This document shows positions 42,929 to 57,481 of a stretch of DNA of 64,000 nt, one piece after another. The notes beneath the pieces were generated by a model that was given only the letters and a program-made list of their open reading frames with translations, ran no database searches and had not been told where the DNA came from. This DNA is from Treponema ruminis. GTDB lineage: Bacteria > Spirochaetota > Spirochaetia > Treponematales > Treponemataceae. The translations under genes were made by a program, and so were the position numbers. How positions within the stretch are numbered: the first letter of the stretch is position 1; the number at the start of each line of letters is the position of its first letter. The stretch covers positions 310,001 through 374,000 of the forward strand of contig CP031518.1 in NCBI GenBank assembly GCA_017161305.1, in the 5' to 3' direction.

Positions 42929-43775
42929 GGGCGAGCAGGTCTTTGAGGCGTTTTGCGTTTTTGGCGCCGCTTCCGTCGGGGTGGTTGTTGAAAAAGACCT
43001 GCGTTTTCTTTCCTTCGCTCATTGCTTTTGAAATGACCGGGACGAAGCTTTCTAATTCTGAATCGGAATAATCATAACAATATCTTGCGCTGCCGTTCTG
43101 TCGCTCTGAACTTGCATACCAGGCTCCGGCGTTTCTTCCGTGCAGGCGGATGTAGGCGTTTGGGCCGATGAAGGGGGATTTTACTGTCTTGCCGTCGGGA
43201 AGGTTCCTTAGCTGGGGCATATCGCAGTAGACTAATCCGGCGCCGCGTTTTTCCAGCCCCTCAAAGACTGATTCCCGAATCCATCCTGCGTGGCGGAATT
43301 CTATCAGGACCGGAAATGCTTCAAAATCTTCTATTAAATTTGCAAGATAGATTCGATTGTCTGGCGTGTAGTGGAAGTTTTGCGGGAACTGAAAAAGGAC
43401 TGCGCTCAGGCTGGCTTTTTCCAAAAGAGGGGTGAGGGCCTGCTTGAAGTCGTCCGCGGTCTTTTGCCATTCTGATGTGACTTCATGGGTGAGAAGCCGG
43501 TTTGCCTTTACACTGAACTGCAATCGGCCTTCGCTCCGCTCGTAAAATGAAAGAAGCCTCTCAGCGGTGGGCATGTTGTAAAAAGTGTTGTTGAGCTCCA
43601 GGGCGTTGAACTGAGTAGCATAATAGGAAAGAAAATCTGCGCGCTTTACTTCTGGCGGATAAAAAACGCCTTTCCACTCCGGGTAGTCGTAGCCACTGGT
43701 GCCGATGAGGATGCTGGACTTGGGATTTGTGTGGCTCTTGGGGGCGTTGGGGCTGGCCGGACTTTCTTCTACCAA
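42918..43775 (-). CDS. DUF72 (YecE-like) protein
   Basis: 285 residues. SILIGTSGYDYPEWKGVFYP, FNALELNNTFYNMPT, FQFPQNFHYTPDNR, VLIEFRHAGWI and YIRLHGRNAGAWYA are the classic DUF72 blocks (TIM-barrel-like fold). The biochemical function is unknown. It is coupled to arfB by a 7-nt overlap. Confidence 0.92.
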   Translation of the reverse strand: MVEESPASPNAPKSHTNPKSSILIGTSGYDYPEWKGVFYPPEVKRADFLSYYATQFNALELNNTFYNMPTAERLLSFYERSEGRLQFSVKANRLLTHEVTSEWQKTADDFKQALTPLLEKASLSAVLFQFPQNFHYTPDNRIYLANLIEDFEAFPVLIEFRHAGWIRESVFEGLEKRGAGLVYCDMPQLRNLPDGKTVKSPFIGPNAYIRLHGRNAGAWYASSERQNGSARYCYDYSDSELESFVPVISKAMSEGKKTQVFFNNHPDGSGAKNAKRLKDLLAPIP

Positions 43776-44179
43776 ATCTTCCCCCTCATTTTTTTAATTT
43801 CGCTGCGGATTTTCTTGAGCTTTAGTTTTCGTTCCTTGCTGGCACGGGTCGGCTTGGTTTTGATTCGTTTTTTGGGGACAACAAGTGCCTGGACGATTCT
43901 GCTTTCGAGACGGGAAAGTGCGATTTCGCGGTTGCGTTCCTGATAGCGTTCGTCGTCGACATCGAGAAAAAGGCAGTCTTCCTTATTGATGATGCCGGAA
44001 AGTTTTGCGCGCAGGCGGACAATTTCTGCATCAGTGAGGCCTGCGAGGGAAGTGATGGCAATGGCAAGATGGACTTTCGTGTTCACCTTGTTTACGTTCT
44101 GACCGCCGTTTCCACCGCTCCGGGCAAAAGTGACTTGAGAATTATTGATGATTGATTCGTGAAGTTGCGTTCTGTTCAT
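43769..44179 (-). CDS. arfB: ArfB-type peptidyl-tRNA hydrolase, copy 1
   Basis: 136 residues. ARSGGNGGQNVNKVNTKVHL places the catalytic GGQ at residues 25-27; the basic C-terminal tail (KRIKTKPTRASKERKLKLKK) inserts into the mRNA channel of stalled ribosomes in ArfB. It releases peptides from non-stop ribosomes. A second, very similar copy lies at 51016-51426. Confidence 0.92.
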   Translation of the reverse strand: MNRTQLHESIINNSQVTFARSGGNGGQNVNKVNTKVHLAIAITSLAGLTDAEIVRLRAKLSGIINKEDCLFLDVDDERYQERNREIALSRLESRIVQALVVPKKRIKTKPTRASKERKLKLKKIRSEIKKMRGKIW

Positions 44180-44259: not shown

Positions 44260-44276
44260 TGATATAATGGTGGGCA
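44260..44276 (+). promoter_or_regulatory. Extended -10 promoter of the macrodomain gene, near-leaderless
   Basis: TGATATAAT (44260-44268) followed by 7 nt and the ATG at 44276, the same geometry as at hisD. No Shine-Dalgarno fits. Confidence 0.5.
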
Positions 44277-44797
44277 TGGGAAAAATCAAAATTATCAAAG
44301 GTGACATAACAAAACTTAGCTGCGATGCAATCGTAAATGCCGCAAATTCTTCTCTTCTCGGAGGCAGTGGTGTTGACGGTGCAATTCATTACGCTGCCGG
44401 CCCGGAACTTCTCGCTGAATGCCGTATTCTCGGCGGCTGCAAAACCGGTCAGGCGAAAATCACAAAAGGCTACAATCTTCCGTCCCGATTCGTGATTCAC
44501 ACCGTCGGCCCGATTTATTACGAGCACAGCCCGGCAGAGGCAGAGTCGCTGCTAACGTCCTGCTACAAAAATTCCTTGAACCTCGCAAAAGAAAAAGGCC
44601 TTAAGACAATCGCCTTTCCGCTGATTTCAGCCGGAGTTTACGGCTATCCGCAGAGGGAAGCGATTAAGGTCGCGGTGGAGACGATGAAAGTACACCAGGG
44701 GGAGTTTGATGAGATTACGCTGATTCTCTTTGGAGCACGGGAATTTGGAATGGCGCAAGAGGATTATGGGGAGTATGTAGGGGGGGCAGGGGCTTGA
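44276..44797 (+). CDS. Macrodomain ADP-ribose hydrolase (YmdB-type)
   Basis: 173 residues. [31 protein letters not shown] and the later [15 protein letters not shown] are the two ADP-ribose loops of YmdB/MacroD proteins, which remove O-acetyl-ADP-ribose or mono-ADP-ribose. The C-terminal VGGAGA is encoded in a tRNA-like fragment, so the end may have been altered. It may counter ADP-ribosylating toxins such as the DUF3990 protein, but that is speculation. Confidence 0.9.
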
Positions 44798-44820
44798 ACC
44801 TACGGCCTCCGGGTTATGAG
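44783..44820 (-). tRNA. tRNA-Met-like 3' fragment at a repeat border
   Basis: The minus strand reads CTCATAACCCGG, then AGGCC, then GTAGGTTCAAGC: an anticodon loop with CAT, the 3' anticodon stem and a T-arm. The T-stem has one extra base and the acceptor does not close, and the 5' half is missing. It looks like a broken tRNA-Met whose anticodon loop is the junction with the 255-bp repeat. Confidence 0.5.
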
Positions 44821-45067
44821 AAGGTCAAAAGAGTCTTCGCTAGTATCACACCCCTTCAGAATGTTGCATTTTTCGCATTATACACCAACTCTTTCCAAAA
44901 AAAACAACACAGATTGCAACAGTAAATTTCAGTTAAAAATTGCGTTTTGTTTAAAGTTTTTGGTTAGAATTTCGACCTTCAGAGTTTTAACCCGTAGGCC
45001 GAAATTTACGCTATTTTTACAGTTTTAGATGAGGCCTTAGGGCTGTTGTCCCGAAGATTTTTATACT
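44812..45067 (+). repeat. ~255-bp direct repeat, copy 1
   Basis: From GGTTATGAGAAGG to TTTTTATACTG, about 95% identical to 52671-52926. It contains an internal hairpin AATTTCGACCT/AGGCCGAAATT and AGGCCTTAGGGC. There is no open frame of note. Its right end overlaps the last codons of the AlbA_2 gene. Confidence 0.9.
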
Positions 45068-46527
45068 GTAACGATTTTTTCTCGATTTGATAAATATTCA
45101 GAACTTTTACCTTCCTTACTCTCAATAAGAAATCCATCCTTCACTAAAACATCGAGGATTTCTTTTCTAAAATATGTAGATGCTTTTATTCCAAGATAGT
45201 CTGCTATTTCTTTTGCTGTATGGGCTTTTGCAAAACAGAATGATAAAATTGCCTTGTCATTTTTTCCTGTAACAATGCCATTTACATTAATATTTGGAAT
45301 TGAGTTTTCATCAATAACGCCATTTGAATATGTAAGGTTTGGTAATGTTAGTGTAAATGAATTGCCATTTGAAGAAATAAACGGCTTGAAAGATTCTCCC
45401 TTACCTGCATAATCCTGTTCAATTTTATCGAAGCCAGAGCCTTTTGATTCCATATAGCGAAGATATTCCAAAATATTGCAGATAACTTCATTTCGTCGGC
45501 GAGGAATGATGGATGAAATATTTTTTTCTTTTTGCAAAGCTACAACGCCCAGCAATGCTCCTGGGGAAGTGATTTCAAGTCGATCCTTAAACATATTTAT
45601 TTCAATCTGACTTCCCTGGATGAAGTAATTTCTGTGAGCTATAGCATTAACGATACCTTCTGTAATAGAACGTGCCGGGTATGAAAAATAATCAATACGG
45701 CTTTCATCAACTTTCTTAAATCCTGTTACAGAATGACTCTGAATGAAGTGAGTTGCAAACTTAATTGAATCAATTAGATTTCCTTCAAATTCTTCAGAAG
45801 CCAAGACTATAGAACTTCCTTTGGTTATTTCTGGCCAAACTGTACATACAATTTTCGTTCTTTCATTTTTGTAATTATCAGAAAAAAGCTGTGCTCCTTT
45901 AGAAAGTTTTTTGTCTGAATTAATAAAGCCTGCGGAAATTAAAGCTTTTTCTGTAAGTTCTGACTCATTTCTTTCTTTGTACAAATCAAAAATCTGTTTG
46001 AAATTGTTTTTATCAAAGATTTCTTCTGTAAATGGCTGGTCGAAAGGATTGTTATCACTTAAGAGAATTAATTCTCGAATCTGTTCTGGAGTAGCCAGCA
46101 GGGAACTTCCGTAACTTCGAATATAGATTCCGAGGAGATTTTCTTCATGCAAAGTGACAGGCAGTATTGTATTTTTCTCTACAGAAATTTTTAAAATATA
46201 TCTTGTAGATTTTTCCGCTTCTTTAATTGGGATGGTATCTATTGAATATGAAATAGATGGTTCAATTCTCTGTTTAATCTGGCGGTTTATCATCAAAATT
46301 GTTTTATCAGCTGCATCATGATCCAAAGAAATTATTTTATGAGTATTGTTATCGACTCCGATATACAAAGTGCCGCCAAATGTATTTGCAAAAGCCGCAA
46401 TTGTTTTTAGCCAGCCAATCTCTTTTGACTTTCCAGAATCTTCGGATTTTCCTTCTTCAATGATTCTTTTAAACTCATTTTGAGTATCTTCAATGTTTAT
46501 TCCGGGAATTAATTCTTCAATCAGCAT
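45061..46527 (-). CDS. AlbA_2/Schlafen-type ATP-binding protein, copy 1
   Basis: 488 residues from MLIEELIPGI (GAGG 5 nt upstream). ENEFKR-like QNEFKRIIEEG, GWLKTIAAFANTFGGTLYIGVD is the AlbA_2 (Schlafen AAA_4) domain; ITEGIVNAIAHRNYFIQGSQIEI and MFKDRLEITSPGAL form the GHKL-like half; a C-terminal winged helix (AKEIADYLGIKASTYFRKEILDVLVKDGFL) should bind DNA. Probably a transcription regulator of its own cluster. A paralogue lies at 52943-54382. Confidence 0.85.
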   Translation of the reverse strand: MLIEELIPGINIEDTQNEFKRIIEEGKSEDSGKSKEIGWLKTIAAFANTFGGTLYIGVDNNTHKIISLDHDAADKTILMINRQIKQRIEPSISYSIDTIPIKEAEKSTRYILKISVEKNTILPVTLHEENLLGIYIRSYGSSLLATPEQIRELILLSDNNPFDQPFTEEIFDKNNFKQIFDLYKERNESELTEKALISAGFINSDKKLSKGAQLFSDNYKNERTKIVCTVWPEITKGSSIVLASEEFEGNLIDSIKFATHFIQSHSVTGFKKVDESRIDYFSYPARSITEGIVNAIAHRNYFIQGSQIEINMFKDRLEITSPGALLGVVALQKEKNISSIIPRRRNEVICNILEYLRYMESKGSGFDKIEQDYAGKGESFKPFISSNGNSFTLTLPNLTYSNGVIDENSIPNINVNGIVTGKNDKAILSFCFAKAHTAKEIADYLGIKASTYFRKEILDVLVKDGFLIESKEGKSSEYLSNREKIVTV

Positions 46528-46557
46528 AAGCACCTCTTAATTCCACTTTACTATAAA

Positions 46558-46629
46558 TGAAGTTTTTAGTGAAGTAGAGTGAAGTATTACTTCATTTCAC
46601 TTCACTATCTTTTTCGCATATTGTGAAGT
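46558..46629. promoter_or_regulatory. TGAAGT/ACTTCA operator array before AlbA_2 copy 1
   Basis: Six hexamers: TGAAGT at 46558, 46570, 46580 and 46624, ACTTCA at 46589 and 46599. TGAAGTATTACTTCA (46580-46594) is a perfect 15-bp palindrome. Spacing is near one helical turn. The array lies between the divergent AlbA_2 and XRE genes and may control both. Confidence 0.75.
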
Positions 46630-46687
46630 AATTTTTTTAAACTAACAGTTTACTATTCTTTTTGTGAAATCTTATTATAATGAACTT

Positions 46688-47107
46688 ATGGAGTATTCCT
46701 ATTCACTTAAACCAACAAAACGGACAGTTGTTGATATTCCAGCAACTTCGAGACTCTTAAAAGAACTGCGTAATAAAAACGGCTATAGCGTAAAGCAGCT
46801 GCAGGAAATATTCGGATTTGAGACACCTGTAGCAATTTATGCTTGGGAAAATGAGAAGTGTAAGAATATTCCGTGCATCGAAAACTTTGATCTCCTATCT
46901 AAACTTTATAAATGTCATGTTGAAGAACTGTATGTTCTGAAGCAAGTTGATTTTTCAGGTTTGGAAGTTCATGAAGATATTCCTGAGTATAAAACATATA
47001 GGAGTCTTGTTAATCATCTGCTTGAAGGTTTGGCTGATATTGAGGAAGGTAAGATTCAGGATTTTCATGAAGCGATGAAAGAGATTCGTGAAGAGCTTGA
47101 AATTTAA
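46688..47107 (+). CDS. XRE-type helix-turn-helix regulator 1
   Basis: 139 residues from MEYSYSLKPTKR. SRLLKELRNKNGYSVKQLQEIFGFETPVAIYAWENEK is the HTH, of the same subtype as XRE 2. The C-terminal ~50 residues are helical and acidic. It is divergent from the AlbA_2 gene, sharing the operator array, and upstream of the RNA-repair cassette, which it may regulate. Confidence 0.8.
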   Translation: MEYSYSLKPTKRTVVDIPATSRLLKELRNKNGYSVKQLQEIFGFETPVAIYAWENEKCKNIPCIENFDLLSKLYKCHVEELYVLKQVDFSGLEVHEDIPEYKTYRSLVNHLLEGLADIEEGKIQDFHEAMKEIREELEI

Positions 47108-47172
47108 ACTACAACTTTAATGACAAATGAAAATTTATTTGTTAAAGTGAAAATACAAAACACAAATTAAAG

Positions 47173-47252
47173 TCGCTGGCCCTAAGAAGCCGAGCGCCGT
47201 GTCTCAATGGTTTTGCAAACCGGAGACAAAAACCCGATACGCCGTTGGCGTA
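47173..47252 (+). ncRNA. Candidate structured leader RNA
   Basis: Three consecutive hairpins: GCTGGC/GCCgAGC (47175-47196), TGTCTC/GAGACA enclosing GGTTT/AAACC (47200-47227), and ACGCC/GGCGT (47239-47251), about 20 nt before a strong AAAAGGAG ribosome site. I do not match it to a known riboswitch. The surrounding 170-bp gap is otherwise AT-rich. Confidence 0.4.
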
Positions 47253-47281
47253 AAAATTATCTTTTATAAAAGGAGTGCGTA

Positions 47282-47443
47282 ATGAGCACAGACACATTTG
47301 ACATTACAAAATTATCTCGTGCAATGATTCTACGCACACTTTGGAATTACAAAATGCCTGGGCAGGCAATAAAAGATAATGGAGTTTTTGTTAATGGAGA
47401 AAAATCATATGAGGACCGTAACTATTCAAAGGCCGGTTGTTGA
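47282..47443 (+). CDS. Small protein (53 aa) overlapping XRE 2
   Basis: MSTDTFDITKLSRAMILRTL to YSKAGC, preceded by AAAAGGAGTGCGTA, the best ribosome site in this stretch. It overlaps the XRE 2 start by 35 nt. Basic and helical; not recognised. It could be a leader or partner peptide of the regulator. Confidence 0.5.
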   Translation: MSTDTFDITKLSRAMILRTLWNYKMPGQAIKDNGVFVNGEKSYEDRNYSKAGC

Positions 47444-47738
47444 TCTGAAAGCAACCGGTGTACAAATTAAATCACTCAGAATCAAAAGTGGATACACTGT
47501 TCACGATATTCAGGCCGTATTCGGTTTTGAATATCCGCAGGCTGTGTATGCATGGGAATGCGGAAAATCTATTCCTACAATCGACAACTTGCTTGTGCTT
47601 GCCCACTTGTTTGACGTTTCAGTCGAAGAGATTGTAATCCAGCGCATGATTGAAATTGAAGTTTCGTGCGTTTCAAACAAGATTGAGAAGCTATGCAACA
47701 AGAATTGTAACGATTGCAAATTGCGGCTGAGTGCCTAA
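47409..47738 (+). CDS. XRE-type helix-turn-helix regulator 2
   Basis: 109 residues from MRTVTIQRPVVDLKATG (GGAG 9 nt upstream). QIKSLRIKSGYTVHDIQAVFGFEYPQAVYAWECGKSIPTIDNL is a clear XRE HTH. The C-terminus carries a Cys-rich tail (CVSNKIEKLCNKNCNDCKL) with four Cys, possibly a metal or redox sensor. Just upstream of the RNA ligase gene, it is a good candidate for its regulator. Confidence 0.85.
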   Translation: MRTVTIQRPVVDLKATGVQIKSLRIKSGYTVHDIQAVFGFEYPQAVYAWECGKSIPTIDNLLVLAHLFDVSVEEIVIQRMIEIEVSCVSNKIEKLCNKNCNDCKLRLSA

Positions 47739-47745
47739 TCTTTTC

Positions 47746-47787
47746 TGTCTGTAAGCCATCTTTTTAAATTAATGGTTTACAGACAGA
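47746..47787. promoter_or_regulatory. Long hairpin between XRE 2 and RNA ligase genes
   Basis: CTGTCTGTAAGCCAT (47746-47760) pairs with ATGGTTTACAGACAG (47773-47787), 14 of 15 positions. No U-tract follows. It may be a terminator-like attenuator or a dyad operator. Confidence 0.6.
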
Positions 47788-47873
47788 CTGAAAATCCAAT
47801 CATACAATTAAAACATCGCTACCAAATAAAAAAGGGTTCCGTTACGCCCTTATTGTAATCAAAGGAAAATATC

Positions 47874-48926
47874 ATGAGAAAATTAGCAAGTGTCCAGACT
47901 ATCTGGGACGTACAGTCGATAGAAGGGGCCGACAGGATAGAAGTCGTTTCCGTTTTGGGATGGAAATGTGTTACCAAAAAGGGCGTATTTAAGAAATACG
48001 ATTTATGCGTTTATTTTGAAGTAGATGCATTTTTGCCAGTGAAGCCTGAGTTTGAGTTTTTGCGAGACGGATGTTACAGATGCAATGAATTGAACGGCGA
48101 AGGCTTTTTGATGAAGACGAGAAACTTCCGAGGACAGGTTTCACAGGGTCTTGTTTTGCCACTTTCAATTCTGGATGGAATCGAACCGCTCGATGGCCAT
48201 GCCTGGAAGACTGGTGATATTGTAAGCGAACAACTTGGTGTAAAGAAGTGGGAAGTTGCAGAAATTGCCACTGGTAGCGGACGAGTTATCGGGGATTTTC
48301 CACACGGTATTCCAAAGACTGACGAAATCCGAGTTCAGGCAGAACCTGGATTGATTGACGAGTTCAAGGGCGTTCCATATTACATCTCAACCAAGATGGA
48401 TGGAACCAGCGTGACTATGTATCTGATTGACGGTGACTTTGGAGTCTGCTCAAGGAATTACGAAATTGCTGATGATGAGACTAGCCCGGCATGGAAGTTT
48501 GTTCATAAGCACAATGTGATTGAGAAAATCAAAAAGGGAGCTGAGGCTATTGGATTGAAAAATGTAGCGGTTCAGGGTGAGTTCTGTGGAGAAGGCATCC
48601 AGAAAAATCCGCTTAAGCTTGTAACTGCCGAATGGTACGTTTTCACTTTGCGTGATATGGATCAGGGAAAAAGACTTGGTCTGAAAACCATGCAGGCCTT
48701 TTGTGACGTTGCCGGTTTGAACATGGTTCCTGTTGAGGAAACAGGAGACAATCTTCCTTACAAAACTGTAGATGAGTTCATCGAAAGGGCAAAAGGAAAG
48801 TATGCCAGCGGTAATCACAAGGAAGGAATTGTCATCAGGCCAATCGAACCTGTTTACAGCAAAATCCTTGAAGGTCCGCTTTCTATGAAGGTGATTAACA
48901 ACGATTACCTTTTGAAGCAGAAGTAA
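47874..48926 (+). CDS. RNA ligase, DRB0094 (Rnl5) type
   Basis: 350 residues. The N-terminal ~120 residues form the OB-fold-like domain typical of DRB0094 ligases (ASVQTIWDVQSIEGADRIEVVSVLGW). The adenylyltransferase domain has motif I STKMDGTSVTMY with nucleophile Lys174, motif IIIa/IV EFCGEGIQ and KEGIVIRP, and motif V SMKVINNDYLLK. Such ligases seal 3'-OH/5'-PO4 RNA, preferring 3'-OH on a DNA template or nicked RNA. It heads a one-direction set with two phosphoesterases and ArfB. Confidence 0.9.
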   Translation: MRKLASVQTIWDVQSIEGADRIEVVSVLGWKCVTKKGVFKKYDLCVYFEVDAFLPVKPEFEFLRDGCYRCNELNGEGFLMKTRNFRGQVSQGLVLPLSILDGIEPLDGHAWKTGDIVSEQLGVKKWEVAEIATGSGRVIGDFPHGIPKTDEIRVQAEPGLIDEFKGVPYYISTKMDGTSVTMYLIDGDFGVCSRNYEIADDETSPAWKFVHKHNVIEKIKKGAEAIGLKNVAVQGEFCGEGIQKNPLKLVTAEWYVFTLRDMDQGKRLGLKTMQAFCDVAGLNMVPVEETGDNLPYKTVDEFIERAKGKYASGNHKEGIVIRPIEPVYSKILEGPLSMKVINNDYLLKQK

Positions 48927-48933
48927 CAAAAAA

Positions 48934-48962
48934 TACCTGTATGAGTAATTCATACAGGTAAA
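48934..48962. terminator. Hairpin after the RNA ligase gene
   Basis: ACCTGTATGA/TCATACAGGT, a 10-bp stem with a short loop, flanked by A-runs. It lacks a plus-strand U-tract, so it may be a processing or stability element within the cassette rather than a terminator. Confidence 0.5.
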
Positions 48963-48985
48963 AAATTTAATTATAGGAAAAATAT

Positions 48986-49504
48986 ATGAGTGTTGATATT
49001 ATAGCTCCCATCATAGCTGAAAAATTAAACGACAAAGAAGAAAAATATTCATACGTTGGCCATTTTAATGCAAATTTCCTTCACAATCACTTAGATATAG
49101 CTTTCGATTGGCAAGATGAAGCTTCAGAAGAACTCACAGAAGCATTTTGGAGTTTTCAAGAAGAAAAGTATCAAATTTTGGGTTTATTCGTACTAACCAC
49201 AAAAAAACTCCAGGATTATATTGATGATATTGAAGCAGATATCACCCAAATCAAATTTGATCGAGAAAATGATTATTATATTGTCCATACATCGAAATCA
49301 AGGAATGCTGTAGAAAGAGCAATGAAACGAATTGCCTGGACGAAAGGTGCTATTGAATCTCGAAGAAAAGATATTGCTGAAGTGAATTATTATAAGGTTG
49401 GATTAGAATTTGTATCTGTATTACTAGCAAATTATGATTATGATTTTTCTGAAAAGTGTTCCAAACGAACCCAAGAAATACATTGTCTTTTAGAGTATCG
49501 ATAA
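48986..49504 (+). CDS. Unknown protein of the RNA-repair cassette (172 aa)
   Basis: 172 residues, acidic and helical (MSVDIIAPIIAEKLNDKEEK; SRNAVERAMKRIAWTKGAIESRRKDIAE). No signal or membrane segment and no known motif. It is placed between the RNA ligase and the phosphoesterases with short gaps (59 and 18 bp), so a shared function is likely. Confidence 0.65.
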   Translation: MSVDIIAPIIAEKLNDKEEKYSYVGHFNANFLHNHLDIAFDWQDEASEELTEAFWSFQEEKYQILGLFVLTTKKLQDYIDDIEADITQIKFDRENDYYIVHTSKSRNAVERAMKRIAWTKGAIESRRKDIAEVNYYKVGLEFVSVLLANYDYDFSEKCSKRTQEIHCLLEYR

Positions 49505-49522
49505 TTTATCTGGAGTTTTAAT

Positions 49523-50353
49523 ATGAAAATCTACATGACAAGCGACCTGCATGTTGATCATTACATAAATCATCGTGTGAGTCTAGAAAACTACATAAAC
49601 AATGCTCTCAAACCAGCGGATGTGCTTTGTGTCGCAGGGGACACTTGTGATGATCCGAATCTGTTTGTTGAATTTTACAAGATGGTTTCACCACGTTACA
49701 AAAAGATTTTTGTTGTTTTTGGAAATCATGATTTGACAGTTGGGAACTTGTCCTATTTTCGAAATAATCCGTTTACAGAAACTCAGCCAAAACTAGATTT
49801 TCTGAAGGCAGAAGTTTCGAAGCTGGGTAATGTTTCCATTCTCGATGGTACAGTTGAAGAGTTTGAAGGCGTAAAGTTTGGCGGCACAATGGCGTTTAAT
49901 GATTTTTGCTGGGCTTATAAAATTGATCCAGAGCCGGAAGGAAACATGGCAAAATTTCTTTGCCACTGGAGAGACTGGTTTGATTACCGCCACTGGGAAT
50001 ACATGGGAAATGTTCACAAAGACATTCTTGATTCTCAAATGAAAAAACTGGATTATGTGATTTCCCAAAAGCCTGATATCATAATGACTCATTACATTCC
50101 GCTCTTTTTTGGAGTTGAGGAGATTTATAAAAATGATATCTACACGACTTTTTTCTATTTTGATGGACAGAAATATCTGGACCAGCTGAAAGATAATTGT
50201 ATCTGGCTAGCTGGTCATACTCACTCTGTCCGAACTAAGGATCTAGTAGAAGGTGATGGAAGGACAATTCATCTGAAGCTAAATCCGGTTGGTTATCCCG
50301 ATGAGGATTCTGGAAATGCAGAAAGGATGGATGAGTTTTTGTTGGAGAAATAG
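49523..50353 (+). CDS. Calcineurin-like metallophosphoesterase 1
   Basis: 276 residues with all five metal motifs: SDLHVDH (Asp8, His10), VAGDT (Asp40), FGNHDL, MTHYIP and AGHTHS. The family hydrolyses phosphoesters; cassette context with an RNA ligase suggests 2',3'-cyclic or end phosphates of RNA, an inference. GGAG precedes the start. Confidence 0.88.
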   Translation: MKIYMTSDLHVDHYINHRVSLENYINNALKPADVLCVAGDTCDDPNLFVEFYKMVSPRYKKIFVVFGNHDLTVGNLSYFRNNPFTETQPKLDFLKAEVSKLGNVSILDGTVEEFEGVKFGGTMAFNDFCWAYKIDPEPEGNMAKFLCHWRDWFDYRHWEYMGNVHKDILDSQMKKLDYVISQKPDIIMTHYIPLFFGVEEIYKNDIYTTFFYFDGQKYLDQLKDNCIWLAGHTHSVRTKDLVEGDGRTIHLKLNPVGYPDEDSGNAERMDEFLLEK

Positions 50354-50354
50354 T

Positions 50355-50993
50355 ATGAAACAGATAACAAAAGAGGATTTTCTGCAGGGATATTCACCTG
50401 ATAATATTTTTGTTACAAGCGATTTGCACCTGTATCATACAAATATAATCAAGTATTGCAATCGTCAATTTGATTATTCCCCGGAAGGCTGTTCTCAAAT
50501 GAATGAGTTTATACTTAAAAAATTTGATTCACTTCCGGAGGATTGTCTGATTTGGAATTTAGGTGATGTATATTTGAATCTAAGACTTGAGGAATCCCGA
50601 ATTATGAATGACATAATGAGAATGAAGAAAAATCGAAAGATGAATTTAATTCTTGGAAATCATGATCTCAGAGCAAAAAAGAAACCATTTTCAAATTATA
50701 TAGAGTATTTCGAGCATCTTGGTTTTGATAAAGTTTATAAAGGACCTTTTCAGTTTGAAAATATTGTGCTTTCGCATGAACCTGTATTTATCGATTCTAT
50801 AAGTTCACTTGTAAACATTCATGGCCATACTCATGATACTATGGTGACTGAAGATTATTTTACTGGAGAATACAACACGAGTTATCCAAAGCAGAAAGTG
50901 GATCCAGCAAAGTATATCAATGTTTGTATGGATGCTAATAATTGTCGCATTATGAGCTTAAAAGAAATACTGAGTAAAATTGAGAATTCCTAA
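50355..50993 (+). CDS. Calcineurin-like metallophosphoesterase 2
   Basis: 212 residues from MKQITKEDFLQGYSP, starting one base after the stop of phosphoesterase 1. TSDLHLYHTNIIKYCNRQF, NLGDVY, ILGNHDLRAK, LSHEPV and HGHTHD give the complete motif set. The TSDxHxxHxxII pattern is that of the phage and plasmid-borne subgroup. A partner of phosphoesterase 1; two different ones side by side suggest two end-processing steps. Confidence 0.88.
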   Translation: MKQITKEDFLQGYSPDNIFVTSDLHLYHTNIIKYCNRQFDYSPEGCSQMNEFILKKFDSLPEDCLIWNLGDVYLNLRLEESRIMNDIMRMKKNRKMNLILGNHDLRAKKKPFSNYIEYFEHLGFDKVYKGPFQFENIVLSHEPVFIDSISSLVNIHGHTHDTMVTEDYFTGEYNTSYPKQKVDPAKYINVCMDANNCRIMSLKEILSKIENS

Positions 50994-51015
50994 AGAAATG
51001 ACTACAATAGAGAAA

Positions 51016-51426
51016 ATGAACCGAGCAAAGCTTCACGAATCCATAATCAATAATTCTCAAATGACTTTTGCCCGCAGCGGTGGAAACGGCGGTCAGAATG
51101 TAAACAAGGTGAACACAAAAGTTCATCTTGTTGTTCCTGTTACATCGCTTGGTGGCCTTACAGATGCAGAAGTTATTCGGCTTCGTTCAAAACTGGCTGC
51201 CATCATCAATAAAGAAGACTGTATTTTCCTCGACGTTGATGATGAACGTTATCAGGAACGCAATCGAGAAATTGCACTTTCCCGCCTTGAAAACAGAATT
51301 TTGCAGGCTCTTGTTATTCCTAAAAAACGAATAAAAACTAAGCCGACTCGTGCCAGTAAAGAGCGTAAATTAAAGCTCAAGAAAATCCGTAGCGAGATTA
51401 AAAAGAAACGGGGAAAGATCTGGTAA
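51016..51426 (+). CDS. ArfB-type peptidyl-tRNA hydrolase, copy 2
   Basis: 136 residues from MNRAKLHESIIN (ATG at 50998 is a possible alternative). GGNGGQNVNKVNTKVHL carries the GGQ, and the basic tail is intact. About 85-90% identical to copy 1 at 43769-44179 by eye, so a recent duplicate or parallel import. Last gene of the RNA-repair cassette, fitting rescue of ribosomes on cut mRNA. Confidence 0.92.
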   Translation: MNRAKLHESIINNSQMTFARSGGNGGQNVNKVNTKVHLVVPVTSLGGLTDAEVIRLRSKLAAIINKEDCIFLDVDDERYQERNREIALSRLENRILQALVIPKKRIKTKPTRASKERKLKLKKIRSEIKKKRGKIW

Positions 51427-51427
51427 T

Positions 51428-51835
51428 CTAATATGAAGATTTTTCATCTTCATACTTGGGAAGTTTGTCTATTTTTTCCTGAATTGGTTTTGTAGGAAAA
51501 TCATCTTTTTTTAAGCCCATTTTGTAGAAGTTTCCTAATTGATGTTCTAGTCTCAATCGAATCTTCATAATATGCAACTGTGTCTGTACATCATAATGCT
51601 AAAGGCTTTTGTCAGTCCAAGTTGCAATTAAAGCATTTTCTTTTCGTTCTTCTTCAATAGATTTAAATCCTTCATCTAGTTTTTGTTCCAGTTCTTCGAC
51701 GGACGTAACAATGAATCTAGGTTTCTTATAATCCTTTTGCATACTGTCCACAAGTTCTTTTAAGTAAAGCACTTTTTGATCCGGTGTCATATAATGCATT
51801 TCCATACTATAACCGATAAAATCATCATCTTTCAT
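51428..51835 (-). pseudogene. Unknown gene split by an in-frame TAG
   Basis: The 78-residue part (MKDDDFIGYSMEMHYMTPDQ to TWTDKSL) ends at a TAG (51599-51601), and the same frame stays open for 56 more codons (DVQTQLHIMKIRLRLEHQLG to EDEKSSY) to 51428. Either a nonsense mutation or a readthrough gene. Not recognised; helical and acidic. Its start lies directly after the RhuM-like fragment's stop. Confidence 0.55.
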
Positions 51836-52333
51836 TTAGACCTCTTTGTTTTTCAATATTTCAAATAGTTCATTTTCAAAATTTTGAATATTGGGATTAG
51901 CACATGATTTCTTTAAGTCGAGAGTTTCATAATAAGTTTGCTTTGAAAAATAGACTTTGTTTTCAATAATCGATTTCAAATCGCTGTTATGCTTCAAATC
52001 AAAAAGAAGATTGAAATAATAAATCCAGTCATCCATTACGAGAGGAATCTTGGTGGAAAGTTTTTTATTGGCAATTCTCAGATAGAAAGCAAAAAGTAAT
52101 TTTTTATCCTCTTCAGTCAGAGAAATAGTCAAACGTGAAAGTTTTTGAAAAAATTGATGTGTAATCAAACTTGCTTTGTCATAATCATACGCTGTTGCAA
52201 ATAAATCTGTTATTTTTTGTATGAATGAACGTTTAGAGACGGCAATCTCATTATATTCATCTTGAAGTCTTATAAAGTAATCATCATCGAAAATCTGGCC
52301 GCAATTTTTAAGCCGTGTTAGAGTTCGCCGATT
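51836..52333 (-). pseudogene. RhuM-like protein, C-terminal fragment
   Basis: The frame is open from an in-frame TGA near 52339. KNCGQIFDDDYFIRLQDEYNEIA followed by FIQKITDLFATAYDYDKAS and FF resembles the C-terminal half of RhuM virulence-type proteins. The 5' part is absent, cut where the IS21-like sequence begins (~52325). An internal ATG at 52168 could still give 110 residues. Confidence 0.5.
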
Positions 52334-52670
52334 TCAGCCACACCTAAGTCCAGCGGAAATCGCCAAAATCTAGTTCAAATAAAAAAGCCATTATCAAATC
52401 ATATAAAACTCTCTAAACTGAATAGTAACCAGAAACTCAGTCAGGGAGGAATATGAAAAATGATAATGACTCTATAGTCAGTTTAGCACAAGCGCTCCAA
52501 GATATGAAGACAGAGCAAGGCGAAAGTTTTGACCTTGCGAAAGTCAATCTTGCGGAGCTGGAACGGAGATGCGGAATCAGCCGCGCAAAACTCCGGCGAT
52601 TAAAATCCAACAATTTCAAGGAAACTCCTCACGCACTTACGGGAAGAAAAGCTTTGAAGACCGTAATGAC
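52325..52670 (+). mobile_element. IS21-type element remnant, left end and transposase start
   Basis: GCCGATTTCAGCCACACC at ~52328, with a mirrored GGAAATCGCC at ~52357, resembles IS21-family ends. The transposase N-terminus follows. The element stops abruptly where the 255-bp repeat begins, so it is a deletion remnant. Confidence 0.55.
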
Positions 52671-52794
52671 AGGTTATGAGAAGGTCAAAAGAGTCTCCGC
52701 TAGTATCACACCCCTTCAGAATGTTGCATTTCTTGCATTATACATCACCTTTTTCCAAAAAACAACACAGATTGCAACAGTAAATTTCAGTTAA
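52453..52794 (+). pseudogene. Truncated IS21-family transposase (IstA) N-terminus
   Basis: 113 codons; the first ~76 residues (LAELERRCGISRAKLRRLKSNNFKE, then PHALTGRKA) match the helix-turn-helix N-terminus of an IS21 IstA. From GYEKVKRV on, the frame runs into the 255-bp repeat and loses resemblance. GGGAGG precedes the start. No catalytic DDE domain. Confidence 0.7.
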
Positions 52795-52926
52795 AAATTG
52801 CGTTTTGTTTAAAGTTTTTGGTTAGAATTTCGACCTTCAGAGTTTTAACCCGCAGGCCGAAATTTACGCTATTATTACAGTTTTAGATGAGGCCTTAGGG
52901 CTGTTGTCCCGAAGATTTTTATACTG
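52671..52926 (+). repeat. ~255-bp direct repeat, copy 2
   Basis: Near-identical to 44812-45067, in the same orientation, beginning GGTTATGAGAAGG in the transposase frame and ending TTTTTATACTG just downstream of AlbA_2 copy 2. The two copies bracket 7.6 kb. Confidence 0.9.
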
Positions 52927-52942
52927 AGTATATAAAACTTTA

Positions 52943-54382
52943 CTAGACTTTTACCTTTTTTATATCTGTCTTATAAGCTTTTGCGTTTCCTTGTTTATTC
53001 GTTATCAAATAACCCGAACTTACGAGGACATCAAGTATTTTGGTTCTGAAATATGTAGAATCTGATATTCCAAGATAATTTGCTATCTCACTTGCTTTTC
53101 GAGGTGCATTACAGCAAAAGGCAAGGATTTTTTCATCATGCTCGGAAACTGGAGGCGCTGGCAAAACATCAATTGCTGGAATGCTGTCATTCTTAATACC
53201 TAAAGAATAGGTTAAATCTGGAAGAACGAGTGTAAAATGGTCTGATGATGAGAAAATATATGGTTTATGATTTTCGTCTGCATCTGCATAATCTGAAACA
53301 ATTTTATCGAATCCGGTTCCGGCAGCTTCCATTACATTGCATTTTACAAAAACTTTACAAATTAATTCATTTCGGCGCATTGAAATAATATTGGAAAGAT
53401 CATAAGTCTTTGATATTTTTTCTCCCTGATAAAAACTTCCTGGGGAAGAAATTTCCATTCTGTCTTTAAACATATCAATCTGAATCTGTGTCCCCTCAAG
53501 AAAATAATCCCTATGAGCCAGGGCATTGATTACTCCTTCAAAAAGTGCACGCTCTGGATATGCATCTAAATCGATTCTTGAATCTGGAAGTTTTACCATT
53601 GCATGATTCATACGTAGGTTTACAAATTCCATTATAAAATTTATAGAATCAATAAGATTTCCGCTAAATCTGTTAATTGTTATAATTCTTTCACTACCTT
53701 TAGTAAAACCTGCGAAAAGAGAACATTGAATTTGAGTTCTTTCTCCAGAATAATCATCAGAAAAAAGAACAGCACCATTCTTTAATATTTTTTCATTTGT
53801 AAAGAATCCCATTGACTGCAATGCTTTGTCAGTTAATTCTTTGCCAGAATTATGTTCACTGTAAAATGAAAGCAACTTTGTAAAGTTTTCCCGCTTATAT
53901 TCATAACCAGAATCAAGTACATCAAACTGTGTATTGTGGCTTTTTATACTCATTGCGATTATTTCTTCGTAAGTTGCACCATTTGTGAACCCCTCACGAC
54001 GCATATAAATAGAAGGAACATTCTTAAATTTCAGGATTATCGGTTTTATTGGAGATTCAGAAACATCTATTTTGATTATAAAAAGTTCTTTATCATGAAT
54101 CTGATAGCTTATAAATGAAAGTTTGTATATTGGACGAGGAAATATGTGTTCATTAATCTGATTATTAAAGAAATTGCGTTCATTATCAGCTTCTTTGCGC
54201 GTGAAGCCTATAAGTTTATTTGATTTATCTTCAACTCCAATAAAAAAAGAACCACCTTCTGCATTAGAAAAGCCAGCTATAGTTTTAAGCCATCCTTCTG
54301 TATTCTCTCGGTTCAAGCGAGATTTACATTCAATATTTACACTTTCCATTGCTGAGATTTTTATAATATCATCGAGAAGCAT
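52943..54382 (-). CDS. AlbA_2/Schlafen-type ATP-binding protein, copy 2
   Basis: 479 residues. ESVNIECKSRLNRENTEGWLKTIAGFSNAEGGSFFIGVED is the AlbA_2 domain; FEGVINALAHRDYFLEGTQIQI and MFKDRMEISSPGSF the GHKL-like half; ASEIANYLGISDSTYFRTKILDVLVSSGYL a winged helix. It is clearly paralogous to copy 1 but much more diverged than the flanking repeat. The start is MLLDDIIKIS with AGGAGG upstream. Confidence 0.85.
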   Translation of the reverse strand: MLLDDIIKISAMESVNIECKSRLNRENTEGWLKTIAGFSNAEGGSFFIGVEDKSNKLIGFTRKEADNERNFFNNQINEHIFPRPIYKLSFISYQIHDKELFIIKIDVSESPIKPIILKFKNVPSIYMRREGFTNGATYEEIIAMSIKSHNTQFDVLDSGYEYKRENFTKLLSFYSEHNSGKELTDKALQSMGFFTNEKILKNGAVLFSDDYSGERTQIQCSLFAGFTKGSERIITINRFSGNLIDSINFIMEFVNLRMNHAMVKLPDSRIDLDAYPERALFEGVINALAHRDYFLEGTQIQIDMFKDRMEISSPGSFYQGEKISKTYDLSNIISMRRNELICKVFVKCNVMEAAGTGFDKIVSDYADADENHKPYIFSSSDHFTLVLPDLTYSLGIKNDSIPAIDVLPAPPVSEHDEKILAFCCNAPRKASEIANYLGISDSTYFRTKILDVLVSSGYLITNKQGNAKAYKTDIKKVKV

Positions 54383-54509: not shown

Positions 54510-54725
54510 ATGACCTTCAAATCAATCGTCTCTCCAGAAAGCCTTCATCCACAGCCAGAAGCCTTCAAGGATGCTGAAATTGCTGAAGAAAGCCCTGCCG
54601 CCGTCCTCGGAAAAAATACTCTACCTGAGTTTTCGATGATTAGGTTGACGACCCTCCAAAATTTGACGGTCGTTATACTTAAACTTTTTGCATTATTATA
54701 TATTGTTTCAAATAATTTTTCTTGA
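54510..54725 (+). pseudogene. Short truncated ORF running into a 36-bp repeat
   Basis: ATG 54510 opens MTFKSIVSPESLHPQPEAFK and stays open through the first 36-bp repeat to 54725. The first ~44 residues look like real coding sequence, acidic and Pro-rich; the remainder is repeat-encoded and AT-rich junk. Probably a gene start cut off by the array's first repeat. Not recognised. Confidence 0.4.
54643..54678 (+). repeat. 36-bp imperfect palindrome R1
   Basis: Begins GGTTGACGACC and ends GGTCGTTATAC, with CTCCAAAATTTGA between. First of five copies in 2.8 kb. ACGACC/GGTCGT arms can pair. Confidence 0.92.
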
Positions 54726-54808
54726 AGCCTATAAAAAATTAGTAAAAAAAGATTCTTTTTTATAAAATTTTATATTTTTTGTTAATCTTTTACATAATTT
54801 AAGTATAA

Positions 54809-55381
54809 ATGGATGATACTATGAAAAGATATGAAGTTCAGAAAGATACAGTTGATATGTTCTTGAAGGCCTATTATACTTGGCGTAATGAGCCTGGAGA
54901 TGACGAACTTGGTGAGCCCTTTGAGAATAAAGAGCTTTTTGATAAACTTAGCAAAATTTTTTCTGTAAAAGTAAAATATACTAAAGGCGGCGCTTTTATA
55001 GAATATCCAAACGCTTATGTTAAGTTTCTTAAAATGGACTATTACGATAGAAAGACTTCTTTCAAATATAAGTTTCGTCAGTGGGTATATGATAGAGGTA
55101 TTTTTAAGAGTGGACAGTATCTTTTTAAGATTCTTGATTTTACAAATTACCCAAAGATGTATCAGAAAATGTGCATTAAGTTTCAGCAAATTGGTCTTCT
55201 TGAAGAAGATTACAATTTTATATTTAATAAGGCTAAAGAAAAAAATAATTGGGTTTCAAGCTATCAATATAATCTTGAAACCCTCTATAGAACTATTCTT
55301 GGTAGAAATGATATTTTTACTGAAAATACAACAGTATGGTTTTACATTAAAAATATCATAAAATATATTTTCACCGCTTAG
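54809..55381 (+). CDS. Unknown array gene (190 aa)
   Basis: 190 residues (MDDTMKRYEVQKDTVDMFLK...), rich in Lys, Tyr and Phe; the C-terminal ~25 residues are hydrophobic-aromatic (VWFYIKNIIKYIFTA), possibly membrane associated. The TAG stop uses the first G of repeat R2. Very AT-rich. No Shine-Dalgarno of strength; ATG 54821 is an alternative start. Not recognised. Confidence 0.6.
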   Translation: MDDTMKRYEVQKDTVDMFLKAYYTWRNEPGDDELGEPFENKELFDKLSKIFSVKVKYTKGGAFIEYPNAYVKFLKMDYYDRKTSFKYKFRQWVYDRGIFKSGQYLFKILDFTNYPKMYQKMCIKFQQIGLLEEDYNFIFNKAKEKNNWVSSYQYNLETLYRTILGRNDIFTENTTVWFYIKNIIKYIFTA

Positions 55382-55416
55382 GTTGACGACCCTCCAAAAT
55401 TTGACGGTCGTTATAC
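55381..55416 (+). repeat. 36-bp imperfect palindrome R2
   Basis: Identical in sequence to R1. It abuts the stop of the upstream plus-strand gene and lies 26 bp after the stop of the next minus-strand gene. Confidence 0.92.
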
Positions 55417-55442
55417 GAACATATTAAAACTAAAAAAGCTGC

Positions 55443-55793
55443 CTAGACTAATTCTTTATATTTTTTAATAAAAGAGAAAAATTCTTGCTTAGCAAAGGTA
55501 TATTGATCTTGATATGGCCAATATACCTTTTTTTTATCTAAATCTTTTATGATATTATTGCAATCTGATAAAATGCTTTTTATTGTTTCTTTCTTATAAT
55601 AAGATTCTGGACTATTAAGTAGTTTCTTATATTGACCTATTGTTTCATTAAGAGTGCCAGATGTATTTTTAAAAGTATTTTTATTTTCGAGATAGGTAGC
55701 CTGATAAAGTTCATTTAATATGAGCTCTAAAGTTAAAAGTGCTTTAGAGTTAAATTTAATCTGATTATTCTTATTAAAAATCATATTATACAC
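55443..55793 (-). CDS. Unknown array gene (116 aa)
   Basis: 116 residues (MYNMIFNKNNQIKFNSKALL...KKYKELV), helical and Lys/Asn-rich, with KFNSKALLTLELILNELYQATYL near the N-terminus. Resembles the layout of the 120-residue array proteins (short N-terminal FN-S-LF/LL start, then helices). R2 follows its stop on the minus strand. Not recognised. Confidence 0.6.
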   Translation of the reverse strand: MYNMIFNKNNQIKFNSKALLTLELILNELYQATYLENKNTFKNTSGTLNETIGQYKKLLNSPESYYKKETIKSILSDCNNIIKDLDKKKVYWPYQDQYTFAKQEFFSFIKKYKELV

Positions 55794-55890
55794 CTTACAT
55801 TATATAATATATAAAAAGTATATAGAAAATATAAAATTATAAAAAAATACTCACTAGCTATATCACGCTCATCTTCAAACCAAAATAGAG

Positions 55891-56097
55891 TTATGGTTGA
55901 CGAACCTCCAAAATTTGACGGTCGTTATACATAATAGCTAATTTTGAGAAGTCTTCATAATCTCTCATAGCCTTATAAAAGAGAGTGTCAGCTTCGGTTC
56001 TAATATCTTCCATGCTTTCACCGGCAGCATGAATATGTATATGTTTCAAATCGTTGGCAAAAAGTGCCGCATAATATGCTAATTTAGAATATTCCAT
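55891..56097 (-). CDS. Unknown array gene (68 aa), C-terminus encoded by repeat R3
   Basis: 68 residues. MEYSKLAYYAALFANDLKHIHIHAAGESMEDI forms two helices; the last 13 residues (MYNDRQILEVRQP) are translated from the 36-bp repeat itself, so the original end was probably replaced. Not recognised. Confidence 0.55.
   Translation of the reverse strand: MEYSKLAYYAALFANDLKHIHIHAAGESMEDIRTEADTLFYKAMRDYEDFSKLAIMYNDRQILEVRQP
55895..55930 (+). repeat. 36-bp imperfect palindrome R3
   Basis: Differs from R1 at one position (GACGAACC). It encodes the end of the overlapping minus-strand gene. Confidence 0.92.
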
Positions 56098-56214
56098 AAA
56101 GAAATTAGTAGAAATAATTACAAATTATATAATTACAAATTTTATATTAAATTTTGTTAATCTTTTATATATTTTCTAAAAAAGCTATATATTATAAATA
56201 TAAAGGAGACTATT

Positions 56215-56577
56215 ATGGCTAAGACTATAAAGTTTAATAATAGCGCACTTTTTAATCTACAAACTCTTAATGGTTTAATTATGTCTACATGGGGCATGCA
56301 TTATGATGAGCCAGAAGAAAAAATTGAAGATGCTTTTCAACGTGGCATTATTGATTTTAATCATGTTAAAAATAGATATGATGCAGTTTTTAATATGAAA
56401 AATGGTCCCTTCGATTATGATATAAATTATGAAAAAAGTTTATTAAATAAATTAAATGAAGAATTCAAAAAAGTGAGATCTTATAAATTACCATGGTTTA
56501 TGAAAACTTATACGGACTTTATTGAAGAAAAATTTAATGAACTTATGGTAATATATAAAAATGGCGGATGGAAATAA
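56215..56577 (+). CDS. Unknown array gene (120 aa), paralogue of 58596-58958
   Basis: 120 residues: MAKTIKFNNSALFNLQTLNG, WGMHYDEPEEKIEDAF, then FDYDINYEKSLLNKLN and a C-terminus FIEEKFNELMVIYKNGGWK. AAGGAG precedes the start. About 85% identical to the inverted copy 2.4 kb away. Acidic and soluble; not recognised. The following 169 bp hold only a decayed minus-strand fragment (about 56611-56719, SLEWYLKNLKFVDMNNIHN). Confidence 0.65.
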   Translation: MAKTIKFNNSALFNLQTLNGLIMSTWGMHYDEPEEKIEDAFQRGIIDFNHVKNRYDAVFNMKNGPFDYDINYEKSLLNKLNEEFKKVRSYKLPWFMKTYTDFIEEKFNELMVIYKNGGWK

Positions 56578-56746
56578 AAATAAGGGCCTTATTTTAAGGG
56601 TGGTTTGCGATTTATGCTGCAAAAGCATTATGAATATTATTCATATCAACAAATTTTAAATTTTTAAGATACCATTCTAAACTTAAATCATCTAATTCTA
56701 TTTTTTCATGATTACCAATAGATTATAAATCTAAGCCTGGGTATGT

Positions 56747-57061
56747 TTAATTATAATCAAAAAATCTAATTTCTTCGCCGCCATTAGATAGAAAATATGC
56801 TTTTAAAATATTATATTCTTCTTTAGTCATAAAAGAAGCACTAGCTCCAATATATAATCCACCATCGCTACCCCTTAAAAGAGCAGCTTTTCTTAGGCCA
56901 GTTAATATATCATAACTACCCTTAAAATTAGGATCATTTTTAGCAGCGTTAGAAGAAATAATTACAAAGTCTTTAGTCATTCTAAACTTTGAACAAAAAT
57001 CATTTATATTCAAATGACAATTTGGTTTCTTAAAAAAATTAAAAATATTCATAGTTATCAC
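56747..57061 (-). CDS. Unknown array gene (104 aa)
   Basis: 104 residues (MITMNIFNFFKKPNCHLNIN...EEIRFFDYN), start possibly at the second ATG, MNIFNFF. The middle has FVIISSNAAKNDPNFKGSYDILTGLRKAALLRGSDGGLYIG, a compact alpha/beta pattern. R4 lies upstream of its start, not after its stop. Not recognised. Confidence 0.6.
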   Translation of the reverse strand: MITMNIFNFFKKPNCHLNINDFCSKFRMTKDFVIISSNAAKNDPNFKGSYDILTGLRKAALLRGSDGGLYIGASASFMTKEEYNILKAYFLSNGGEEIRFFDYN

Positions 57062-57071
57062 CTACTATTAG

Positions 57072-57107
57072 GGTTGACGCCCCTCCAAAATTTGACGGTC
57101 GTTATAC
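57072..57107 (+). repeat. 36-bp imperfect palindrome R4
   Basis: Differs from R1 at one position (GACGCCCC). The next minus-strand gene ends 64 bp to its right. Confidence 0.92.
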
Positions 57108-57171
57108 AAAAAATGTAGAAGTGAAGAAAAAAGATACTTTTAAGTATAATATAGAAGGCTTAAAGAAGAAA

Positions 57172-57420: not shown

Positions 57421-57435
57421 AACTAGCCTCCTTCA

Positions 57436-57471
57436 GGTTGACGACCCTCCAAAATTGGAGGGTCGTCAACC
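57436..57471 (+). repeat. Near-perfect 36-bp palindrome R5
   Basis: The left half equals R1; the right half is the left half's reverse complement (17 of 18 positions). It looks like two left halves joined head to head, marking a change of orientation. Confidence 0.92.
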
Positions 57472-57481
57472 ACACCAATTA

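Follow-up and report, generated by a model that had tools for sequence, protein, structure and literature searches.

A stretch of the Treponema ruminis chromosome, positions 47,282 to 51,426 of a 64,000-nucleotide window that is part of a single 2.9-Mb contig, was originally predicted to encode a cassette for RNA repair and ribosome rescue. We find that its gene set is not one fixed system but belongs to a Treponema island that recombines and is made up of two modules. Module A comprises a conserved leader, a small open reading frame (ORF), a gene for an XRE regulator and, often, an RNA ligase gene, while module B comprises a metallophosphoesterase gene (MPE1), a swappable middle gene and a gene for the ribosome-rescue peptidyl-tRNA hydrolase ArfB. 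The content, order and linkage of these genes, the exchange of modules between relatives, a common palindrome and intact catalytic motifs are directly visible in the DNA. In the window the genes lie on the plus strand, open and with the domains first ascribed to them, as sm53 (47,282-47,443), the XRE gene HTH_B (47,379-47,738), the ligase gene Rnl (47,874-48,926), a 172-aa orphan (48,986-49,504), MPE1 (49,523-50,353), a second metallophosphoesterase gene, MPE2 (50,355-50,993), and ArfB2 (50,998-51,426). Tentatively, and with somewhat less than even confidence, we read the cassette as an ArfB-based, phosphoesterase-rich response to RNA damage that would combine clean-up, ligation and ribosome rescue.

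The modular structure is seen in the gene orders of the eight loci, the window included, that hold an intact MPE1 orthologue at 82% identity or more (loci and genomes of our collection carry L and G numbers). The window has Rnl, the orphan, MPE1, MPE2 and ArfB, and L097 has the same order without the orphan. Rnl, a 201-aa gene, MPE1 and ArfB make up L026 and also L010, where two divergent small genes are added. At three loci an XRE gene is followed by MPE1, a 106-aa gene and ArfB (L027), by a 392-aa gene, MPE1, a 106-aa gene and ArfB (L029), or by MPE1, a PHP phosphoesterase gene and ArfB (L281). In L028 an AlbA gene and what is left of the 201-aa gene (61 aa) precede MPE1 and ArfB. ArfB is therefore downstream of MPE1 in all eight loci, with spacings in the window of 1 base between MPE1 and MPE2 and 4 bases between MPE2 and ArfB (taking the ArfB start at 50,998), and the ligase is upstream of MPE1 in four. 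The middle slot between MPE1 and ArfB2 is variable, holding MPE2 in two loci, the PHP gene in one, and a 106-aa gene or nothing in the rest. Two loci stand outside this count: L030, with a ligase, a truncated MPE1 and no ArfB, and L282, in which an MPE1 of 72% identity is followed by MPE2 and the end of the contig. In the type strain of T. porcinum, the leader, the XRE gene and the ligase gene occur with an MPE1 of reduced length. The same gene set thus recurs elsewhere in part, as the Rnl-MPE1-MPE2-ArfB order of L097, but the orphan does not (among 196 congeneric genomes, only that of the window has it), and the MPE2 slot holds other genes.

Co-occurrence in relatives goes beyond chance for Rnl and MPE1. 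Among 118 congeneric genomes, Rnl is found in six and MPE1 in nine, seven of these being close orthologues, and Rnl and the close MPE1 orthologues are found together in four (hypergeometric 6.6e-5, or 7e-4 without the window's own genome, neither value corrected for relatedness). MPE2 occurs in 16 of the 118, several times weakly, and ArfB in 66, five of these by weak partial matches only. Phylum-wide, at an E limit of 1e-20, MPE1 is present in 7 of 392 genomes and 2 of 166 genera.

The divergence of the genes bears on how the modules have moved. DNA identity to the window is 88-93% for the ligase in six loci (75-76% in L011 and L104) and 91-93% for the HTH_B gene where it is full length, compared with 82-86% for MPE1, 81-87% for ArfB2 and 77-81% for the Macro-domain gene described below. 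For a core gene, that of the anaerobic ribonucleotide reductase, identity is 74-86% in seven of ten of these genomes, and G128, G071 and G080 gave no match. Because ligase identity exceeds that of the core gene where both were measured (core/ligase percentages of 78/91 in G024, 81/93 in G138 and 74/89 in G104), these values suggest that module A was exchanged horizontally in the recent past. Module B, whose identity is nearer to core values (core/MPE1 86/82 in G109), may be older or differently inherited.

New here is a 15-bp island palindrome, TAAACTAACAGTTTA, that is accompanied by a downstream -10-like hexamer and lies upstream of unrelated genes, both XRE genes among them. Across 11 island loci, which total 164,851 bases and two of which (L029 and L286) belong to the same genome, there are 15 exact copies. 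None is present in 154 other ligase loci from other organisms (1,627,421 bases), and the window's own 2.9-Mb genome has a single one, at 46,638-46,652 with TATAAT 23 nt downstream. The palindrome precedes HTH_A (46,664-47,107, plus strand; PF01381, 1.5e-7), the leader of HTH_B, RhuM-type genes and other unrelated island genes. The original prediction placed two XRE regulators in the stretch; both exist, but only HTH_B (PF01381, 8.7e-7; start perhaps 47,409) lies within it, HTH_A being upstream. A -10-like hexamer, TANNNT, starts 23-24 nt past 14 of 16 exact palindrome copies, a spacing that centres the palindrome near -43. This resembles the position, about -42, from which lambda CI activates PRM, so it is a fair guess that the XRE proteins act as activators at the palindrome. 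Phage ownership of the control element was also considered and set aside, as nothing points to it: in the viral collection, a 17-nt form of the palindrome is matched three times and the leader pattern not at all.

Between HTH_A and sm53 lies the conserved leader (47,160-47,281, plus strand), which has three predicted hairpins and is nearly invariant, with 90-98% DNA identity in seven related loci. No pair of its predicted fold is changed on both sides, so the fold has no covariation support, and the one Rfam match obtained is below gathering score and outside the leader. sm53, the small overlapping protein of the original prediction, overlaps the HTH_B gene and has no Pfam or NCBIfam match, yet it is probably coding, since its frame stays open in seven distinct relatives (L100 and L284, the same contig, counted once) despite in-frame length changes that give 53, 62 or 73 codons. 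Because no terminator-like site is called on the plus strand from the XRE gene through ArfB, but strong hairpins occupy the XRE-ligase and ligase-orphan gaps, we regard a single transcript over this span as plausible.

The ligase assigned to the DRB0094 type is indeed an Rnl5-type, ATP-dependent RNA ligase. An N-terminal OB domain (PF21189, 1e-30, residues 4-97) and a nucleotidyltransferase domain (PF09414, 4.6e-24, residues 168-327) are present, motif I (KxDG, here K174-M-D-G) and motifs IV and V (EGIVIR and SMK) are kept in the alignment, and the solved Naegleria gruberi RNA ligase (5cot) is matched over its full length (E 3.5e-49). Although it has this architecture in common with the Naegleria enzyme and DraRnl (DRB0094), the Treponema protein differs from these Rnl5 ligases in belonging to an XRE-regulated island and in scoring 137.7 bits with TIGR02306, under the cut-off of 151.15, which makes it a relative outside that equivalog model. 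The 172-aa protein that follows has an intact ORF and is, as first described, of no recognised family, with no Pfam or NCBIfam match.

Two different metallophosphoesterases were proposed, and both MPE1 (1.3e-10) and MPE2 (3.9e-8) match PF00149; MPE2 is of the PHROG 547 type (phrog_547, 1.4e-36) and most likely starts at ATG 50,355 rather than at a longer TTG start. Metal-site motifs are invariant in the aligned rows of 10 MPE1 and 8 MPE2 homologues. Against the NCBIfam models for PdeM, YfcE and SbcD, MPE1 reaches at best 27.4 of 148.25 (TIGR03729) and MPE2 27.2 of 150 (TIGR04123). The same genome (G000) has a second MPE2-MPE1 pair, locus L032, at C1:1244828-1246254, without ligase or ArfB; the gene after it is a third one of phosphoesterase-like type, with a weaker match.

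ArfB2 is likewise a peptidyl-tRNA hydrolase of the ArfB family, as proposed: it scores 117.6 bits with NF006718 (cut-off 100), matches E. coli ArfB structures and keeps the GGQ motif and the basic C-terminal tail. Its start is most likely ATG 50,998 and not a longer TTG start. A second copy, ArfB1 (43,769-44,179, minus strand; NF006718, 119.9 bits), adjoins a DUF72 gene (PF01904) and is 87% identical to ArfB2; G086 and G128 also have two ArfB genes each. No ArfB relative was found in 50,697 phage records, and one lies on a Treponema plasmid, without the island neighbours.

The genes are set in a 7.86-kb segment, 44,812-52,671, flanked by direct repeats of about 257 nt. The left copy (44,812-45,068) and the right copy (52,672-52,926) are 96% identical over 257 nt and are the only two in the genome. 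The left copy begins in tRNA anticodon-loop sequence and runs on into a remnant of the 3' half of a minus-strand tRNA-Met gene (44,790-44,820) at the left edge of the segment, which has one mismatch to the 3'-half pattern where shuffles expect none. An intact tRNA-Met adjoins four of nine related or comparison loci scanned (L010, L026, L029 and L030), the island in L030 has another 3' fragment of tRNA-Met on its opposite side, and no tRNA was seen at six further loci of a second scan (L283 and L286 set aside). No recombinase or integrase was recognised among the scanned genes between the repeats. The exchange of genes in ordered slots resembles an integron gene-cassette array; however, the integron integrase model TIGR02249 gives ten matches in this genome, all below cut-off, and matches of this kind in the 14 control genomes too; in the absence of an integrase over cut-off we dropped this reading. 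PADLOC returned no defence system; its matches, to 10 proteins, are weak and limited to single domains.

Just outside the left repeat is a Macro-domain gene of the ADP-ribose hydrolase type (44,267-44,797, plus strand; PF01661, 1e-46), and such genes recur in related islands (L027, L028, L030, L097, L281 and L286). Elsewhere in the genus, Macro adjoins ArfB in 4 of 30 ArfB loci (L062, L069, L070 and L073), and in three of the four it directly precedes ArfB in the same orientation. Within the segment, AlbA1 (45,061-46,533, minus strand) encodes a Schlafen/AlbA_2 and HATPase_c_4 protein (PF04326, 1.5e-19; PF13749, 5.2e-21) that has an 89% identical counterpart in L028. It and a further AlbA-type gene at 52,943-54,382 are 41% identical in protein, yet their 3' flanks, the direct repeat, are near-identical. 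Convergent to the cassette, at 51,428-52,300 on the minus strand, are genes o49 and o78 and a shortened RhuM-like gene (PF13310, 1.3e-11, partial model), whose L010 version has 278 aa. A restriction system with a C5 methylase, an AAA_5 protein and an LlaJI-type restriction gene is found near the island, at 36,525-40,878.

Other repeats were seen in the window. Five copies of a repeat of about 36 nt that begins GGTTGACGACCCTCC are spaced between small genes at 54,643-57,492; four have the same right half and one is a perfect palindrome, and the repeat resembles a site of recombination or the end of a transposon. Two genes of about 120 aa without Pfam match (56,213-56,578 and 58,595-58,960) form an inverted pair, 86% alike, and a 9-bp tandem repeat lies within a 408-aa ORF at 5,338-5,523.

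We took 80 of 173 bacterial ligase loci from a named-genome scan and 80 of 200 viral ones, and searched the neighbourhoods of all 160 by tblastn; in 11 of the bacterial ones, less than 1.5 kb of sequence follows the ligase. The orphan is at none of the 160. MPE2 is near the ligase in two bacterial loci, one of them (L130) at 25% identity, and MPE2-like genes are near it in seven viral loci, at 23-27% identity and at least 1 kb away. Another metallophosphoesterase lies 75 nt downstream of the ligase in an Oscillospiraceae locus (L139), and an MPE-like ORF 2.3 kb from it in L214. Apart from these few cases, a general linkage of Rnl and metallophosphoesterase genes was rejected outside Treponema, and given the abundance of MPE2-like genes in phages (323 records) we claim no enrichment. 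MPE1 relatives are found in eight records of named phages, at 23-27% identity; in GAP32 and Kaldavass at most one gene separates it from a DNA ligase gene, and no ligase is among its annotated neighbours in phage G. A single viral contig, the 355-kb jumbo-phage contig L280, has an MPE1 homologue of 33% identity, which is flanked by Thg1 and a CCA/poly(A)-polymerase-type gene; a Macro gene precedes Thg1.

Several known systems resemble the cassette in outline. T4-type Pnkp/Rnl1 and bacterial Pnkp/Hen1 combine end-healing with ATP-dependent sealing, and the phosphatase of bacterial Pnkp belongs to the metallophosphoesterase superfamily; in contrast to both, no kinase or methyltransferase domain is found among the cassette genes. 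Jumbo-phage sets for RNA repair or counter-nucleotide functions contain Macro proteins, calcineurin-like phosphoesterases and ATP-dependent ligases, as in parts of two reviews (PMC7824862, PMC9503650), one of which (PMC7824862) has passages that propose a role in RNA repair for the calcineurin-like phosphatases of a few jumbo phages. The viral contig L280 is of this kind, whereas the Treponema case is a chromosomal island with ArfB. The RtcB2-PrfH (RFH) operon for RNA repair and ribosome rescue has been shown to protect E. coli from colicin E3 and is sporadic and accessory, with linked genes for an RNA ligase and a protein of the GGQ release-factor family (PMC9223846). In the island, however, the ligase is the ATP-dependent Rnl5 type (PF09414) and not RtcB, the rescue factor is ArfB and not PrfH (TIGR03072, 17.5 bits versus a cut-off of 166.65), phosphoesterases are present and the ligase is loosely linked. 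By analogy, the best reading is that the cassette would work like RtcB2-PrfH in outline without being a member, given its other ligase and other release factor. In the open-licence literature we found no paper on an RNA-repair operon of RNA ligase and metallophosphoesterase, in Treponema or otherwise, and none tying ArfB to a mobile genetic element and RNA repair.

From these observations we infer co-transcription, the direction of regulation, the substrates of the enzymes, a joint pathway and a trigger, as follows. The stretch would form the heart of an accessory island that horizontal transfer has shuffled in gut Treponema. Its XRE regulators, which are of lambda-repressor type, would probably act at the common palindrome, centred about 43 bases before a transcription start that is placed by the -10-like hexamer, and would switch the island genes together. 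The phosphoesterases might then clean phosphate-blocked RNA 3' ends or clear released cyclic nucleotides, Rnl would seal breaks with 3'-OH and 5'-phosphate ends, and ArfB2 would free peptides from ribosomes left on broken mRNA. Consistent with this proposal are the constant MPE1-ArfB2 order, the ligase upstream in half of the close loci, the gene order of L097, the palindrome of the island loci, the intact ligase and ArfB motifs, the RtcB2-PrfH and jumbo-phage precedents, the enzymes of RNA ends and translation in or near the islands (Macro, ArfB, ligase and the PTH2-type peptidyl-tRNA hydrolases of L027 and L030), the replacement of one phosphoesterase by another in the middle slot (MPE2, PHP), the LlaJI-type restriction genes nearby and the tRNA-repair context of the L280 homologue.

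A number of findings weigh against this proposal. Four of the eight close loci have no ligase, and the two modules are unlike in divergence. MPE1 is near the ligase in four and ArfB2 in three of the 80 bacterial ligase loci, all in Treponema, and neither is near it in any of the 80 viral loci. Distant MPE1 copies of 46-49% identity (L031, L032, L033 and L283) have no adjoining ArfB, and MPE2 is near in three of these four (L032, L033 and L283). In G109, which is 98% complete, the island copy is the sole ArfB found. The best fold match of the MPE1 model is the phosphopantetheinyl hydrolase PptH, at a template modelling (TM) score of 0.60-0.65, followed by MPPED2 (0.49-0.52) and Dbr1, which debranches RNA (0.39-0.40), in a model of low confidence (predicted local distance difference test, pLDDT, 71) whose matches are generic to the superfamily. 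The palindrome copy before the leader (47,105-47,119) is degenerate in the window, with three mismatches to the 15-mer, where relatives have exact or near-exact copies, and one-mismatch forms are at background in the genome (16 versus 17 in the control). Finally, no kinase domain for 5'-OH ends was found among the cassette proteins, the rest of the genome not having been searched. Most ribotoxins leave 5'-OH ends, which need a 5'-kinase, and the VapC (PIN) kind leave 5'-phosphate. Ligation by the cassette would therefore require 5'-phosphate ends or a kinase encoded elsewhere, and the healing and sealing of ends by the cassette alone, as first envisaged, is not borne out. Of the coherent response to RNA cleavage, the MPE1-ArfB linkage, the partial ligase linkage and the tRNA enzymes of L280 are supported, but the exact set as a unit is not. 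We consider it unlikely that a fuller version of our proposal holds, namely an ArfB counterpart of RtcB2-PrfH in the form of a mobile XRE-controlled unit of a dedicated ArfB and paired metallophosphoesterases, with Rnl5 as frequent partner and the leader as possible sensor, that repairs RNA breaks and clears stalled ribosomes.

Part of this evidence would suit a tRNA-Met hot spot that gathers independently acting genes, with common regulation and neighbourhood but no joint pathway. The repeat-bounded segment at a tRNA-Met remnant, the changing slot contents, the DUF2442, RhuM, YhcG, AlbA and orphan genes mixed in, the single-genome orphan and the unequal modules are all in keeping with such a collection, which we hold possible but doubtful in view of the constant MPE1-ArfB2 order, the exchange of phosphoesterase for phosphoesterase and the recurrence of Macro, PTH2, ArfB and ligase. 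Alternatively, MPE1, MPE2, PHP and Macro may degrade cyclic or ADP-ribose-type nucleotides, as defence signals or toxic metabolites, with ligase and ArfB incidental. The neighbours of distant MPE1 or MPE2 relatives fit this: SLOG-type (YAcAr) genes directly upstream in L033 and L037, further phosphoesterases in L032 and L037, and PHP and TatD genes in L283, from another genus. The small-molecule hydrolase and MPPED2 as fold matches of the low-confidence model agree with it too, as do the counter-nucleotide functions that parts of the two reviews assign to such jumbo-phage sets (PMC7824862, PMC9503650). Since it leaves the constant ArfB2 and the ligase unexplained, and the context in L280 is one of tRNA repair, we judge it quite unlikely.

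It is also conceivable, if very unlikely in our estimate, that ArfB2 does no more than serve the genome as a backup rescue factor, accessory in the genus, with the hot spot alongside. The wide occurrence of ArfB in the genus and the islands in which it is the sole copy found, in G109 and also in G024 (83% complete) and G138 (79% complete), favour this, but the paired ArfB genes of the window genome, G086 and G128 do not, nor does the close spacing of ArfB2 with MPE1 in every intact orthologue.

If the RNA-damage reading is true, ArfB would also be part of a mobile damage response, in contrast to the stand-alone rescue factor portrayed in sections of a 2019 survey, which give it no extensive conserved neighbourhood beyond a pseudouridine synthase gene (PMC6514570), and the palindrome and leader would provide a handle on the trigger of the island. 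If it is false, the island is still a clear case of tRNA-side hot spots swapping RNA-end and translation enzymes in gut spirochaetes.

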